A stretch of DNA of 64,000 bases from Streptococcus parapneumoniae (GTDB taxonomy: Bacteria; Bacillota; Bacilli; Lactobacillales; Streptococcaceae): NCBI RefSeq assembly GCF_037076355.1, contig NZ_AP026968.1, forward strand, positions 636,501 to 700,500, written 5' to 3'. Positions 13,472 through 15,390 of the stretch are shown piece by piece. Positions within the stretch are counted from its first letter, which is position 1. Each line of letters opens with the position of its first letter. Position numbers and translations under genes: made by a program. A model generated the notes under the pieces. That model was not told the DNA's origin and made no database searches. It saw nothing but the letters and a program-made list of their open reading frames with translations.

Positions 13472-13590
13472 TTGACAAAGAAGTTAGTTATTGGTAGAAT
13501 AGTGAATGTCGTAAAGACAAATAACTTCTTCTTGGTTACAGGCATGCCAACCTGTCACTCGGATGAAGCCAAATAAAAAGGAGAAACATC
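13472..13590 (+). promoter_or_regulatory. rpsO promoter and structured leader
   Basis: TTGACA (13472-13477) and TAGAAT (13495-13500) are 17 bases apart. About 80 bases of leader follow, with ACAGG/CCTGT pairing around 13540-13557. Ribosomal protein S15 often represses its own mRNA by binding such leaders; that this one does so is inference. Confidence 0.6.
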
Positions 13591-13994: not shown

Positions 13995-14022
13995 GCTACT
14001 CTAAATTGGGTAGCTTTTTTAC
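13995..14022 (+). terminator. Terminator downstream of rpsO
   Basis: AAGCTAC (13995-14001) pairs with GTAGCTT (14012-14018), followed by six T. Confidence 0.8.
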
Positions 14023-14030
14023 TTTTGTTA

Positions 14031-14087
14031 CCTTACTTCGATATACTCAAGTATAATCTTCGGTTACAGTTCCTAGCACTGTAAGGT
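14031..14087 (+). repeat. Repeat A, copy 1 (paired with 15333-15390)
   Basis: A 56-base sequence with two small dyads, TATACT-CA-AGTATA and TTACAGT-N7-ACTGTAA. A copy about 86 percent identical lies in the same orientation at 15333-15390, on the other side of cadD. Confidence 0.7.
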
Positions 14088-14127: not shown

Positions 14128-14274
14128 GTTTCACTAAAAATTTTGTACAATCTTCGGCTTACCGCCTAGTCTATAAACGGTTTATCCAGCAAGAATTATG
14201 ATGCTAAGGGCGTAAGAAATCCGTATGAAAACAGGGAAATGACACAGTGTTCGATGAACACAAGGAGTTTCATC

Positions 14275-14339
14275 TTTTTCACTAGGATTTTAGCCCGAGC
14301 TCAAATCAGCTCTCTGATTTTCAGAGGGCTTTTTTATTG
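14275..14339 (+). repeat. Repeat B, copy 1, containing a terminator
   Basis: CACTAGGATTTTA, CCGAGCTCAAAT and then the terminator stem AGCTCTCTGA/TCAGAGGGCT (14308-14330) with T-tract. A near-identical copy in the same orientation follows cadD at 15265-15331. Confidence 0.8.
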
Positions 14340-14433
14340 AGGTTTTATCGGTCACAATTTTGGAGACTACAAAAACCTCAAATGGTATCAGCTAATTACA
14401 CCATAAAGGTGCGTAGCTACTCGGAGAGCCCAC

Positions 14434-14469
14434 ACTTTACGAAGTAAAGTATAGTATGTTATACTTTAC
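14434..14469 (+). promoter_or_regulatory. cadD promoter with overlapping tandem dyads
   Basis: ACTTTAC-GAA-GTAAAGT (14434-14450) is a perfect 7-base dyad. GTAAAGTATA (14444-14453) and TATACTTTAC (14460-14469) form a perfect 10-base dyad with a 6-base spacer, sharing the middle half-site. A promoter TTACGA (14437-14442)-17-TATACT (14460-14465) lies inside, so a protein bound here would block RNA polymerase. The regulator is not known. Confidence 0.6.
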
Positions 14470-14533
14470 ATAGAAGTAGTCACCTAATTCCAGTTAGAAA
14501 TTACTTTGTAACTACGTTTTGAGGAGGAGTAAA

Positions 14534-14608
14534 ATGCTTTCCTATGTTCGAAATTACCCACTAGCGATAGCTAAATTAATGTGTCTGTGCTCTCCTAAAA
14601 TCTGCTGA
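14534..14608 (+). CDS. Candidate Cys-containing leader peptide of cadD (24 residues)
   Basis: ATG at 14534 follows a strong GAGGAGGAG site (14521-14529) and is read for 24 codons to TGA at 14606-14608. The peptide starts MLSYVRNYPLAIAKLM and ends CLCSPKIC, so three of its last eight residues are Cys. The frame ends 31 bases before cadD. The codons for Cys, Ser and Pro at its end overlap CTCTCCT (14590-14596), which can pair with the cadD ribosome binding site. It is therefore a candidate for leader-peptide control by cadmium or thiol state. Not a known family. Confidence 0.5.
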   Translation: MLSYVRNYPLAIAKLMCLCSPKIC

Positions 14609-14639
14609 TTTATTACTGACTAATACAGGAGGGTTTTTT
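14590..14639 (+). promoter_or_regulatory. Stem that would sequester the cadD ribosome binding site
   Basis: CTCTCCT (14590-14596) pairs with AGGAGGG (14627-14633) through seven pairs, one of them G-U. The second strand is the cadD Shine-Dalgarno sequence and is followed by six T (14634-14639), so the stem could act as a translational block or as a weak terminator. Confidence 0.5.
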
Positions 14640-15260
14640 ATGGGACAGACAATCATATCTGCTATTGGTGTTTATATTTCCACCAGTATCGATTATTTAA
14701 TTATTTTATTTATTTTATTTGCACAGCTATCACAGAATAAACAAAAATGGCATATTTATGCGGGGCAATATCTAGGCACAGGCTTACTTGTAGGGGCGAG
14801 TTTAGTTGCTGCTTATGTCGTTAATTTCGTGCCTGAAGAATGGATGGTTGGATTGCTTGGTTTAATCCCTATCTATTTAGGGATTCGCTTTGCAATTGTT
14901 GGAGAAGGTGAGGAAGAAGAGGAAGAAGAGGAAGAAATTATTGAAAGATTAGAACAAAGCAAGGCAAATCAACTGTTTTGGACAGTTACATTGCTAACAA
15001 TTGCGTCTGGCGGAGATAATTTAGGTATCTATATACCTTATTTTGCTTCATTAGATTGGTCACAGACCCTCGTGGCCTTGCTTGTGTTTGTAATCGGCAT
15101 AATTATCTTATGCGAGATTAGTCGGGTATTATCCTCTATTCCCTTAATATTCGAGACAATTGAAAAATACGAGCGAATCATTGTGCCCTTAGTATTCATT
15201 CTACTTGGACTATACATCATGTATGAAAATGGCACGATAGAGACTTTTCTGACCGTGTAG
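14640..15260 (+). CDS. cadD: Cadmium resistance transporter, CadD family
   Basis: A 206-residue membrane protein with about five or six helices, of the CadD family, which confers Cd(II) (and some Zn(II)) resistance in Gram-positive bacteria. Features include ISTSIDYLIILFILFAQ near the N-terminus, a cytoplasmic loop with nine consecutive Glu (about residues 91-99), then TIASGGDNLGIYIPYF. There is no adjacent cadC/cadX-type repressor gene. It starts at 14640, six bases after AGGAGGG. It stands alone between two copies of repeat B, downstream of a complex leader. Confidence 0.9.
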   Translation: MGQTIISAIGVYISTSIDYLIILFILFAQLSQNKQKWHIYAGQYLGTGLLVGASLVAAYVVNFVPEEWMVGLLGLIPIYLGIRFAIVGEGEEEEEEEEEIIERLEQSKANQLFWTVTLLTIASGGDNLGIYIPYFASLDWSQTLVALLVFVIGIIILCEISRVLSSIPLIFETIEKYERIIVPLVFILLGLYIMYENGTIETFLTV

Positions 15261-15264
15261 ATTT

Positions 15265-15331
15265 TTTTGTTTCACTAGGATTTTATCCCGAGCTCAAATT
15301 GGCTCTCTGACTTCAGAGGGCTTTTTTGTTG
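15265..15331 (+). repeat. Repeat B, copy 2, containing the cadD terminator
   Basis: Matches 14275-14339 closely. GCTCTCTGA (15302-15310) and TCAGAGGGC (15313-15321) with a T-tract form the terminator for cadD. Confidence 0.8.
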
Positions 15332-15332
15332 T

Positions 15333-15390
15333 CACCTTCCCTCGATATCTTCAAGTATAATCTTCGGTTACGATTATTAGCACTGTAAGA
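15333..15390 (+). repeat. Repeat A, copy 2
   Basis: Same orientation as 14031-14087, with eight differences in 56 bases; the second dyad is degraded. Order around cadD is A-B-cadD-B-A. Confidence 0.7.

Follow-up and report, generated by a model that had tools for sequence, protein, structure and literature searches.

In many bacteria of the lactic-acid group, including the pneumococcus, a short cysteine-ended leader peptide is encoded upstream of cadD and is likely to serve as an intrinsic metal sensor, which would switch on the pump at loci without a neighbouring cadC. The leader was found in the window, by which we mean the whole stretch of Streptococcus parapneumoniae DNA that was analysed (64,000 nucleotides; NZ_AP026968.1, positions 636,501 to 700,500), and the features of the locus are collected in Table 1. 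To our knowledge, bacterial heavy-metal efflux is generally described as being under the control of repressor proteins. If our reading is true, the cadD leader family would control heavy-metal efflux through the ribosome, without a repressor, by means of the shortest metal-sensing nascent chain that we know of. It would also explain the purpose of rio79, a translated but unexplained pneumococcal small ORF (sORF), and of the fitness-linked RNA trn0760.

The cadD product scored 215.3 bits in the NCBIfam search with TIGR00779, for which the cut-off is 181.65. Its ATG (14640) comes straight after a run of six T (T6), and the neighbours of the gene in the window are rpsO and a gene for a FecCD-type permease. 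A tblastn search of the window locus (L001), taken with 1.5 kb on either side of cadD, yielded no CadC-like gene, and an ArsR-type gene adjoining cadD, as in CadC- or CadX-type arrangements, was not found at this locus. The genome that carries the window is a single contig of 2.33 Mb. It has a second, distant cadD (37%) elsewhere, labelled in our CadD tree as having a CadC-like gene downstream. A separate scan of genome contigs with CadD gave no more than two loci. No known metal riboswitch was detected, as Rfam gave no model match for positions 14430-14680 at E ≤ 1; at the gathering threshold, the whole window contained one tRNA and no riboswitch. A TTG frame upstream of rpsO (13532-13576) corresponds to rio80, an sORF listed in a table of PMC9426450.

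Table 1. Features of the cadD locus, in coordinates of the window.
Feature	Position	Strand	Basis
Left copy of the repeat flanking the cadD unit, with terminator-like hairpin	14266..14340	+	repeat and terminator scans
Putative relic of a MobV-type plasmid oriT/RSA (origin of transfer), within which the cadD promoter lies	14420..14481	+	blastn, repeat/nick context
Predicted promoter: -35 TTTACG 14436-14441, extended -10 TATG then TATACT within 14455-14465	14436..14465	+	
Leader Shine-Dalgarno GAGGAGGAG	14521..14529	+	sequence
Leader ORF, 24 codons, MLSYVRNYPLAIAKLMCLCSPKIC-stop	14534..14608	+	ATG 14534, TGA 14606-14608
Conserved core codons Y-P-L-A-I-A-K-L-M-C-L-C	14555..14590	+	alignment of leaders, codon comparison, pattern search
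Cys17-Leu18-Cys19 codons, proposed sensing/stalling site	14582..14590	+	Cys pair conserved; predicted fold
CTCTCCT, candidate anti-SD inside leader codons, not covarying	14590..14596	+	sequence
cadD Shine-Dalgarno AGGAGGG 14627-14633, then T6 14634-14639	14627..14639	+	sequence
cadD, CadD-family cadmium resistance transporter, 206 aa	14640..15260	+	Pfam Cad 9.3e-93; NCBIfam TIGR00779
Right copy of the flanking repeat	15259..15331	+	repeat and terminator scans

An earlier, sequence-only reading of this DNA had described a 24-codon, Cys-ended frame with a strong ribosome binding site, and we confirmed both the frame and its Shine-Dalgarno sequence (SD). Judged from its sequence, the leader is a short upstream ORF with its own SD, as in erm- and cat-type leaders, and its start has been mapped by others in strain D39 (see below); the peptide and its critical codons are conserved as well. 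For close relatives we compared 73 near-relative locus records, in which some loci were fetched repeatedly and which contain 19 distinct ORFs. The frame shows no indel or length change in any of the 73, and Cys17 and Cys19 are invariant throughout, while Cys24 is replaced by Tyr in seven records. Column-minimum changes among these leader ORFs amount to 13 synonymous versus 8 non-synonymous, where 27% synonymous would be expected (P = 0.0008). Among 147 Streptococcus genomes, 29 carry cadD at E below 1e-100, and the leader is present in all 28 of these besides the window's own (L005-L032). Leader and cadD also occur together on nine plasmid records from Lactococcus, Enterococcus, Lactobacillus, Ligilactobacillus and Lacticaseibacillus. 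We set aside a tally of variability in the upstream flank, since indels move its columns out of register. Some individual loci are unusual: cadD has one internal stop codon in each of L009 and L022, where the leader is intact, and in an Enterococcus faecium plasmid (L039, AP026629) cadD departs abruptly from its relatives after codon 6, with the leader and the length of the gene kept.

A peptide ending in [YS]PLAxxKLMCLC or a variant of it is encoded upstream of divergent cadD genes (CadD identity 39-100%) within the order Lactobacillales. Short ORFs preceding CadD proteins of only 39-66% identity encode MDFIRFYPLATFKLMCLCA (L059), VSFILFYPLATFKLMCLC (L079), MKQFIKHSPLALAKLMCLCENHQF (L068), VKRFIKRYPLALAKLMCLCNTLGCSY (L071), VKLFLKMSPLATAEAQCVCSQF (L069) and MNRNFYFYLSKLMCLCK (L203), and the leaders of L060 and L061 end in FDYPLKTHKLMCLC and FDYPLEWHKKMCLCKV, respectively. 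Cys-x-Cys is found in all 14 aligned leaders, so the conservation of the Cys codons that the earlier reading had offered as a check holds, for the peptide, well outside Streptococcus. Lys14 is present in 13 of the 14, and 11 contain only two Cys. The aligned leaders are 14-28 residues long, with a variable N-terminus, hydrophobic-basic in several of them, and a tail of 0-9 residues beyond Cys-x-Cys. Neither NCBIfam nor Pfam returned a family for the leader peptides, the one weak Pfam match (NS4a, E 0.19, one leader) being meaningless.

Across 12 representatives there are 494 pairs of identical degenerate residues, of which 273 differ in codon; mismatches occur at rates of 0.31, 0.24 and 0.55 at the first, second and third codon position, respectively. 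As degenerate codons vary while residues stay, it is the peptide, not the RNA alone, that is kept, and these comparisons show peptide-level selection on the leader frame in the sequences analysed. Such selection would also fit a microprotein that has a function of its own, such as a small CadD partner in the membrane or in metal handling, and that stands upstream simply by operon order; the hydrophobic-basic N-terminus of several leaders and the secretion signal predicted for rio79 in the published table (PMC9426450) would agree with this. We give this reading little credence, however, given that the leaders vary at the N-terminus, range from 14 to 28 residues and continue for 0-9 residues past Cys-x-Cys, that the distance to cadD is tighter from Cys-x-Cys than from the stop codon, and that the leader was not found near cadD where cadC adjoins.

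The pattern of conservation also bears on cysteine supply. Cadmium might tie up cysteine or thiols, or slow the synthesis of cysteinyl-tRNA, and a pause at the Cys codons would then open cadD in the way that Trp codons work in trp leaders, with the peptide itself binding nothing. The invariance of Cys17 and Cys19 (73/73), the Cys-x-Cys of all 14 aligned leaders, the spacing of the two Cys codons two apart and the induction of cadD by cadmium (PMC4366526) are all compatible with such attenuation. A codon-counting leader, however, needs none of the Pro, Leu, Ala, Lys and Met residues upstream, which are selected while their codons are free; conservation spans PLAxxKLM, and no terminator was found at the site (loops up to 8). 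Together with the presence of only two Cys in 11 of 14 leaders and the resemblance of the leader residues to the CadC metal site described below, this makes cysteine-supply attenuation an unlikely explanation.

The placement of the leader in genomes shows that it is closely tied to cadD. A DNA pattern for PLxxxKxMCLC gave 41 matches in 39 of 395 Lactobacillales genomes, and all 41 lie directly upstream of cadD on the same strand (30 were placed by reading them as loci and 11 by coordinates relative to cadD matches). The reversed control pattern gave three matches in the 395 genomes. The motif K[LF]MC[LF]C, searched in 76 genomes from a single family, matched 15 times, 13 times before cadD and twice without cadD, against eight matches for its reversed control. 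When the diverged L068 leader was searched against 72,556 plasmid records (7.3 billion bases) at E ≤ 10, nine records were returned, the same nine cadD leaders that had been found with the window peptide; an L080-type leader had no match in plasmids. A taxonomic spread beyond the order was considered and rejected. A looser pattern matched 51 places in 398 genomes of the class, versus about 86 for its reversed control (hand count), and the 30 of these places that were read as loci comprised 7 cadD leaders and 23 places without cadD. Moreover, the leader motif was absent within 260 nt of cadD in 22 loci outside the order (L179-L181, L183-L201). One loose-pattern match outside the order (L114) is a frame with PLATRKERCVC and has no adjoining cadD.

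No leader was found within 260 nt of cadD in any of 35 locus records that have cadC beside cadD (31 and four more). A look of this length would miss a leader placed farther up, before cadC, and none of the 41 PLxxxKxMCLC matches precedes a cadC-cadD pair. Our CadD tree has 116 rows, some loci being represented twice, after leaving out identical proteins, proteins shorter than 170 residues and all but six near relatives. It comprises 31 rows with the leader, 31 with cadC, 12 with a CadC-like gene downstream and 42 with none of these. Some cadD genes therefore have neither leader nor cadC, although the 42 rows include L177, whose leader lies beyond the 200-nt look. A single group of 37 rows (support 86/93) contains all 31 cadC rows and none with the leader. 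Leader rows are split between two regions of the tree, a distribution that requires at least six changes on its starred branches. As the deepest forks are weakly supported (27/76), both an ancestral leader with losses and repeated gains fit the tree.

The leader core further resembles the metal site of CadC, whose Cys-x-Cys residues we take to be its cadmium ligands. Without gaps, up to 8 of 12 positions are identical between YPLATFKLMCLC and CadC segments such as YALATYKEMCVC. Among 131 distinct CxC-ending segments from 1301 ORFs, predicted on DNA that was cadC-rich by design, most of the highest-ranking ones are CadC sites. Two further segments with high ranks are not from CadC, namely WPLATRKERCVC (L114, fetched by the leader pattern) and PPLSNAKKRCIC. 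Permutation of the non-Cys positions, a test made after the likeness had been noticed, gave P = 0.0032 for 17 segments and 0/5000 for four of them. CadC was not found when the leader profile was run against solved structures, where the one match was unrelated (E 1.6). We put forward only tentatively that a 12-residue module in the nascent leader is a pared-down form of the Cys-x-Cys metal site of CadC, whether inherited or arisen by convergence. The ribosome would then be the cadmium sensor, and a whole CadD branch would have swapped a repressor protein for a peptide of 14-28 residues able to act without ever being released from the ribosome.

For the mechanism, we lean towards a cis-acting sensor in which the Cys-Leu-Cys of the nascent peptide would detect cadmium before release from the ribosome, causing a stall that would lay open the cadD start. 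Cd2+ or a similar thiophilic ion would bind or block the nascent C-x-C, or another metal-dependent ribosome pause would occur there. In the 12 representatives, the paused ribosome would extend to a point some 24-41 nt short of the cadD start and would melt pairing between the leader codons and the cadD initiation region; translation of cadD would follow, with its mRNA either shielded or carried to completion. When metal is absent, ribosomes would run on to the stop codon of the leader and the initiation region would refold. The leader would in this way do in cis the job of the CadC repressor in related operons. We infer the metal contact, the stalling and the opening of cadD.

The distance from Cys2 to the cadD ATG is 39-56 nt in the 12 representatives (mean 46.8, sd 5.3), and that from the leader stop to the ATG is looser (19-53 nt, sd 10.0). 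L177 is an exception, as its leader lies about 187 nt upstream of cadD and thus beyond the reach of the proposed mechanism. The sequence-only reading had proposed a stem between CTCTCCT, which consists of the last base of Cys19 and the codons of Ser20 and Pro21, and the cadD SD AGGAGGG. The geometry allows seven pairs including one G-U, yet the stem did not pass the covariation check: codon 20 is TCC in 12 and TTC in 15 of the 73 near-relative records, which puts a mismatch in the stem, and no compensating SD change was seen among them. The overlapping terminator suggested at T6 was likewise not found in a terminator scan (loops of at most 8). The leader-peptide switch as originally proposed is thus unsupported in its specific stem and its terminator, but supported in its conserved frame, its tie to cadD and the agreement with a published start, sRNA and cadmium induction, so that its central idea withstood most of the refuting conditions set for it.

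Predicted folds suggest other pairings. That of the window sets TGTCTGT, in the Cys17-Cys19 codons, opposite ACAGACA in cadD codons 2-4 (14645-14651) and includes the SD region in the same long hairpin. The Cys-Leu-Cys codons pair with the SD in the predicted fold of L203, and the Pro-Leu codons do so in those of L060, L061, L068, L216 and L071. Alternative SD-masking structures are thus predicted in several lineages, each with different pairings. L060 and L061 have a predicted three-helix arrangement running from leader to cadD, in which A-U is exchanged for G-C on both sides of one helix (two sequences). Relative to synonymous recodings, SD accessibility ranked no higher than the 10th percentile in 9 of 19 rows and above the median in four, the rows not being independent, as seven are near relatives; for L069, L070 and L080 this test used an internal Met as the leader start. 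With a ribosome-sized stretch masked at Cys2, the SD became more accessible in 11 of the 19 rows and less accessible in five, and its accessibility stayed within 0.01 in three. Native combinations of leader and SD were not significantly more paired than swapped ones in 11 rows (P = 0.15 for accessibility and 0.10 for duplex energy). With mixed results against recodings and no significance against swaps, SD masking was not established as a general conserved feature.

Published pneumococcal data concern the same leader. In the parts of PMC9426450 available to us, rio79 of S. pneumoniae D39 is MLSYVRHYPLAIAKLMCLCSPKIC, with an ATG start mapped by ribosome profiling (highest peak 117); it is placed between spv_1438 and spv_1439 and marked as present in six of six further strains. 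Its peptide is identical to the window leader except for His7 in place of Asn7. The sRNA trn0760 shares the sp_1625-sp_1626 gap with rio79, the same kind of gap before cadD as in the window, and is given there with a nasopharynx fitness of 0 (Table 2, PMC9426450); a transposon fitness of 0 in the nasopharynx (p < 0.003) is reported for it in the accessible part of PMC3395615. The words 'cadmium' and 'cysteine' are absent from the text of PMC9426450. We equate spv_1438 with spd1438 because of the shared gene number. The latter is the pneumococcal cadD and, according to the portions of PMC4366526 at hand, is induced about 3.6-fold at 30 µM Cd2+, an effect at the transcript level that is abolished by added Mn2+.

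Among known systems, the nearest precedents for such a sensor are CruR and CutF, both for copper. The leader peptides of erm and cat genes offer a more general model: a short leader ORF with a strong SD precedes a resistance gene, and antibiotic-dependent stalling frees the start of that gene. At cadD, by contrast, the proposed ligand is a metal, and a mutually exclusive hairpin pair was not established. As described in the sections of PMC9426467 available, CruR (DUF2946) of Bordetella pertussis is an upstream ORF whose nascent Cys pair (CXXC) perceives metal, and it controls downstream metal-transport genes in cis. CruR is, however, longer than 140 residues and has a C-terminal RAPP arrest motif, and copper shuts its operon off by Rho, whereas the cadD leaders have 14-28 residues, CXC, no RAPP in 14 aligned sequences, an efflux gene downstream and presumably induction. 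The window leader had no Pfam match at E ≤ 10 and hence no DUF2946. CutF of Rhodobacter capsulatus is also an upstream ORF that acts as a metal sensor with a stalling-like motif, and the downstream gene is turned on when a stem-loop shielding its ribosome-binding site unfolds (PMC9973294, available sections). CutF differs from the very short cadD leader, whose Cys motif is near the end, in responding to extracytoplasmic copper while being exported and in carrying a proline-rich motif at its C-terminus, as stated in the same sections. The cadD operon of Streptococcus suis has the same transporter family and the same metal, but is controlled by CadX, a trans-acting repressor that binds the promoter and is released by Cd2+ (PMC11430099, as far as accessible); no such repressor gene was found adjoining cadD at the window locus. 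A literature search judged by titles and the openings of abstracts, a scope in which subscription papers are mostly missing, turned up no description of a cadmium leader peptide.

The region upstream of the leader appears to derive from a plasmid transfer site. A blastn search with 14400-14640 matched 650 plasmid records. In 60 evenly spaced rows of these, nearly all match only about query positions 21-89, and two have mobV annotated beneath. In the layout of the pMV158 oriT and Pmob1, the -10 is TATAcT with the extension TGTG and adjoins the nick site (PMC5863519, PMC8264293, in the parts accessible). The window has the corresponding inverted repeats and nick context around the -10 TATACT, and AAAGTATARTRNGTTATACTTTAC at 14446-14469 was absent from 100 shuffles. 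The predicted +1 at about 14472 lies 14 nt past the oriT-like nick position, as for Pmob1, and agrees with the start at 14472 given in the earlier reading. A promoter scan found eight sites versus 6.8 expected in shuffles, which by itself proves nothing. From the match at 14420-14481, cadD in the window's lineage seems to be transcribed from a former relaxase promoter, and the cadD cassette may have spread by relaxase-site recombination.

This promoter, which elsewhere is an autoregulated relaxase promoter according to the same partly accessible sources (PMC5863519, PMC8264293), brings up the question of whether the leader merely couples or boosts cadD translation, with cadmium control exerted by an unrelated factor acting at the promoter. 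The strong SD of the leader and the fact that the reported induction concerns the cadD transcript (PMC4366526) would agree with this. Coupling would not require a fixed peptide, however, and L059, L068 and L203 keep the peptide without an oriT-like promoter (by eye); we hold coupling alone to be quite improbable and retain the nascent-peptide sensor as the preferred reading. The cadD unit is in addition flanked by direct repeats, which look like the outcome of an adjacent intergenic segment being duplicated on both sides of the unit. Besides the copies in Table 1, a second pair lies at 14018-14085 and 15322-15389. The flanking repeats are imperfect (82-95%), and some contain terminator-like hairpins.
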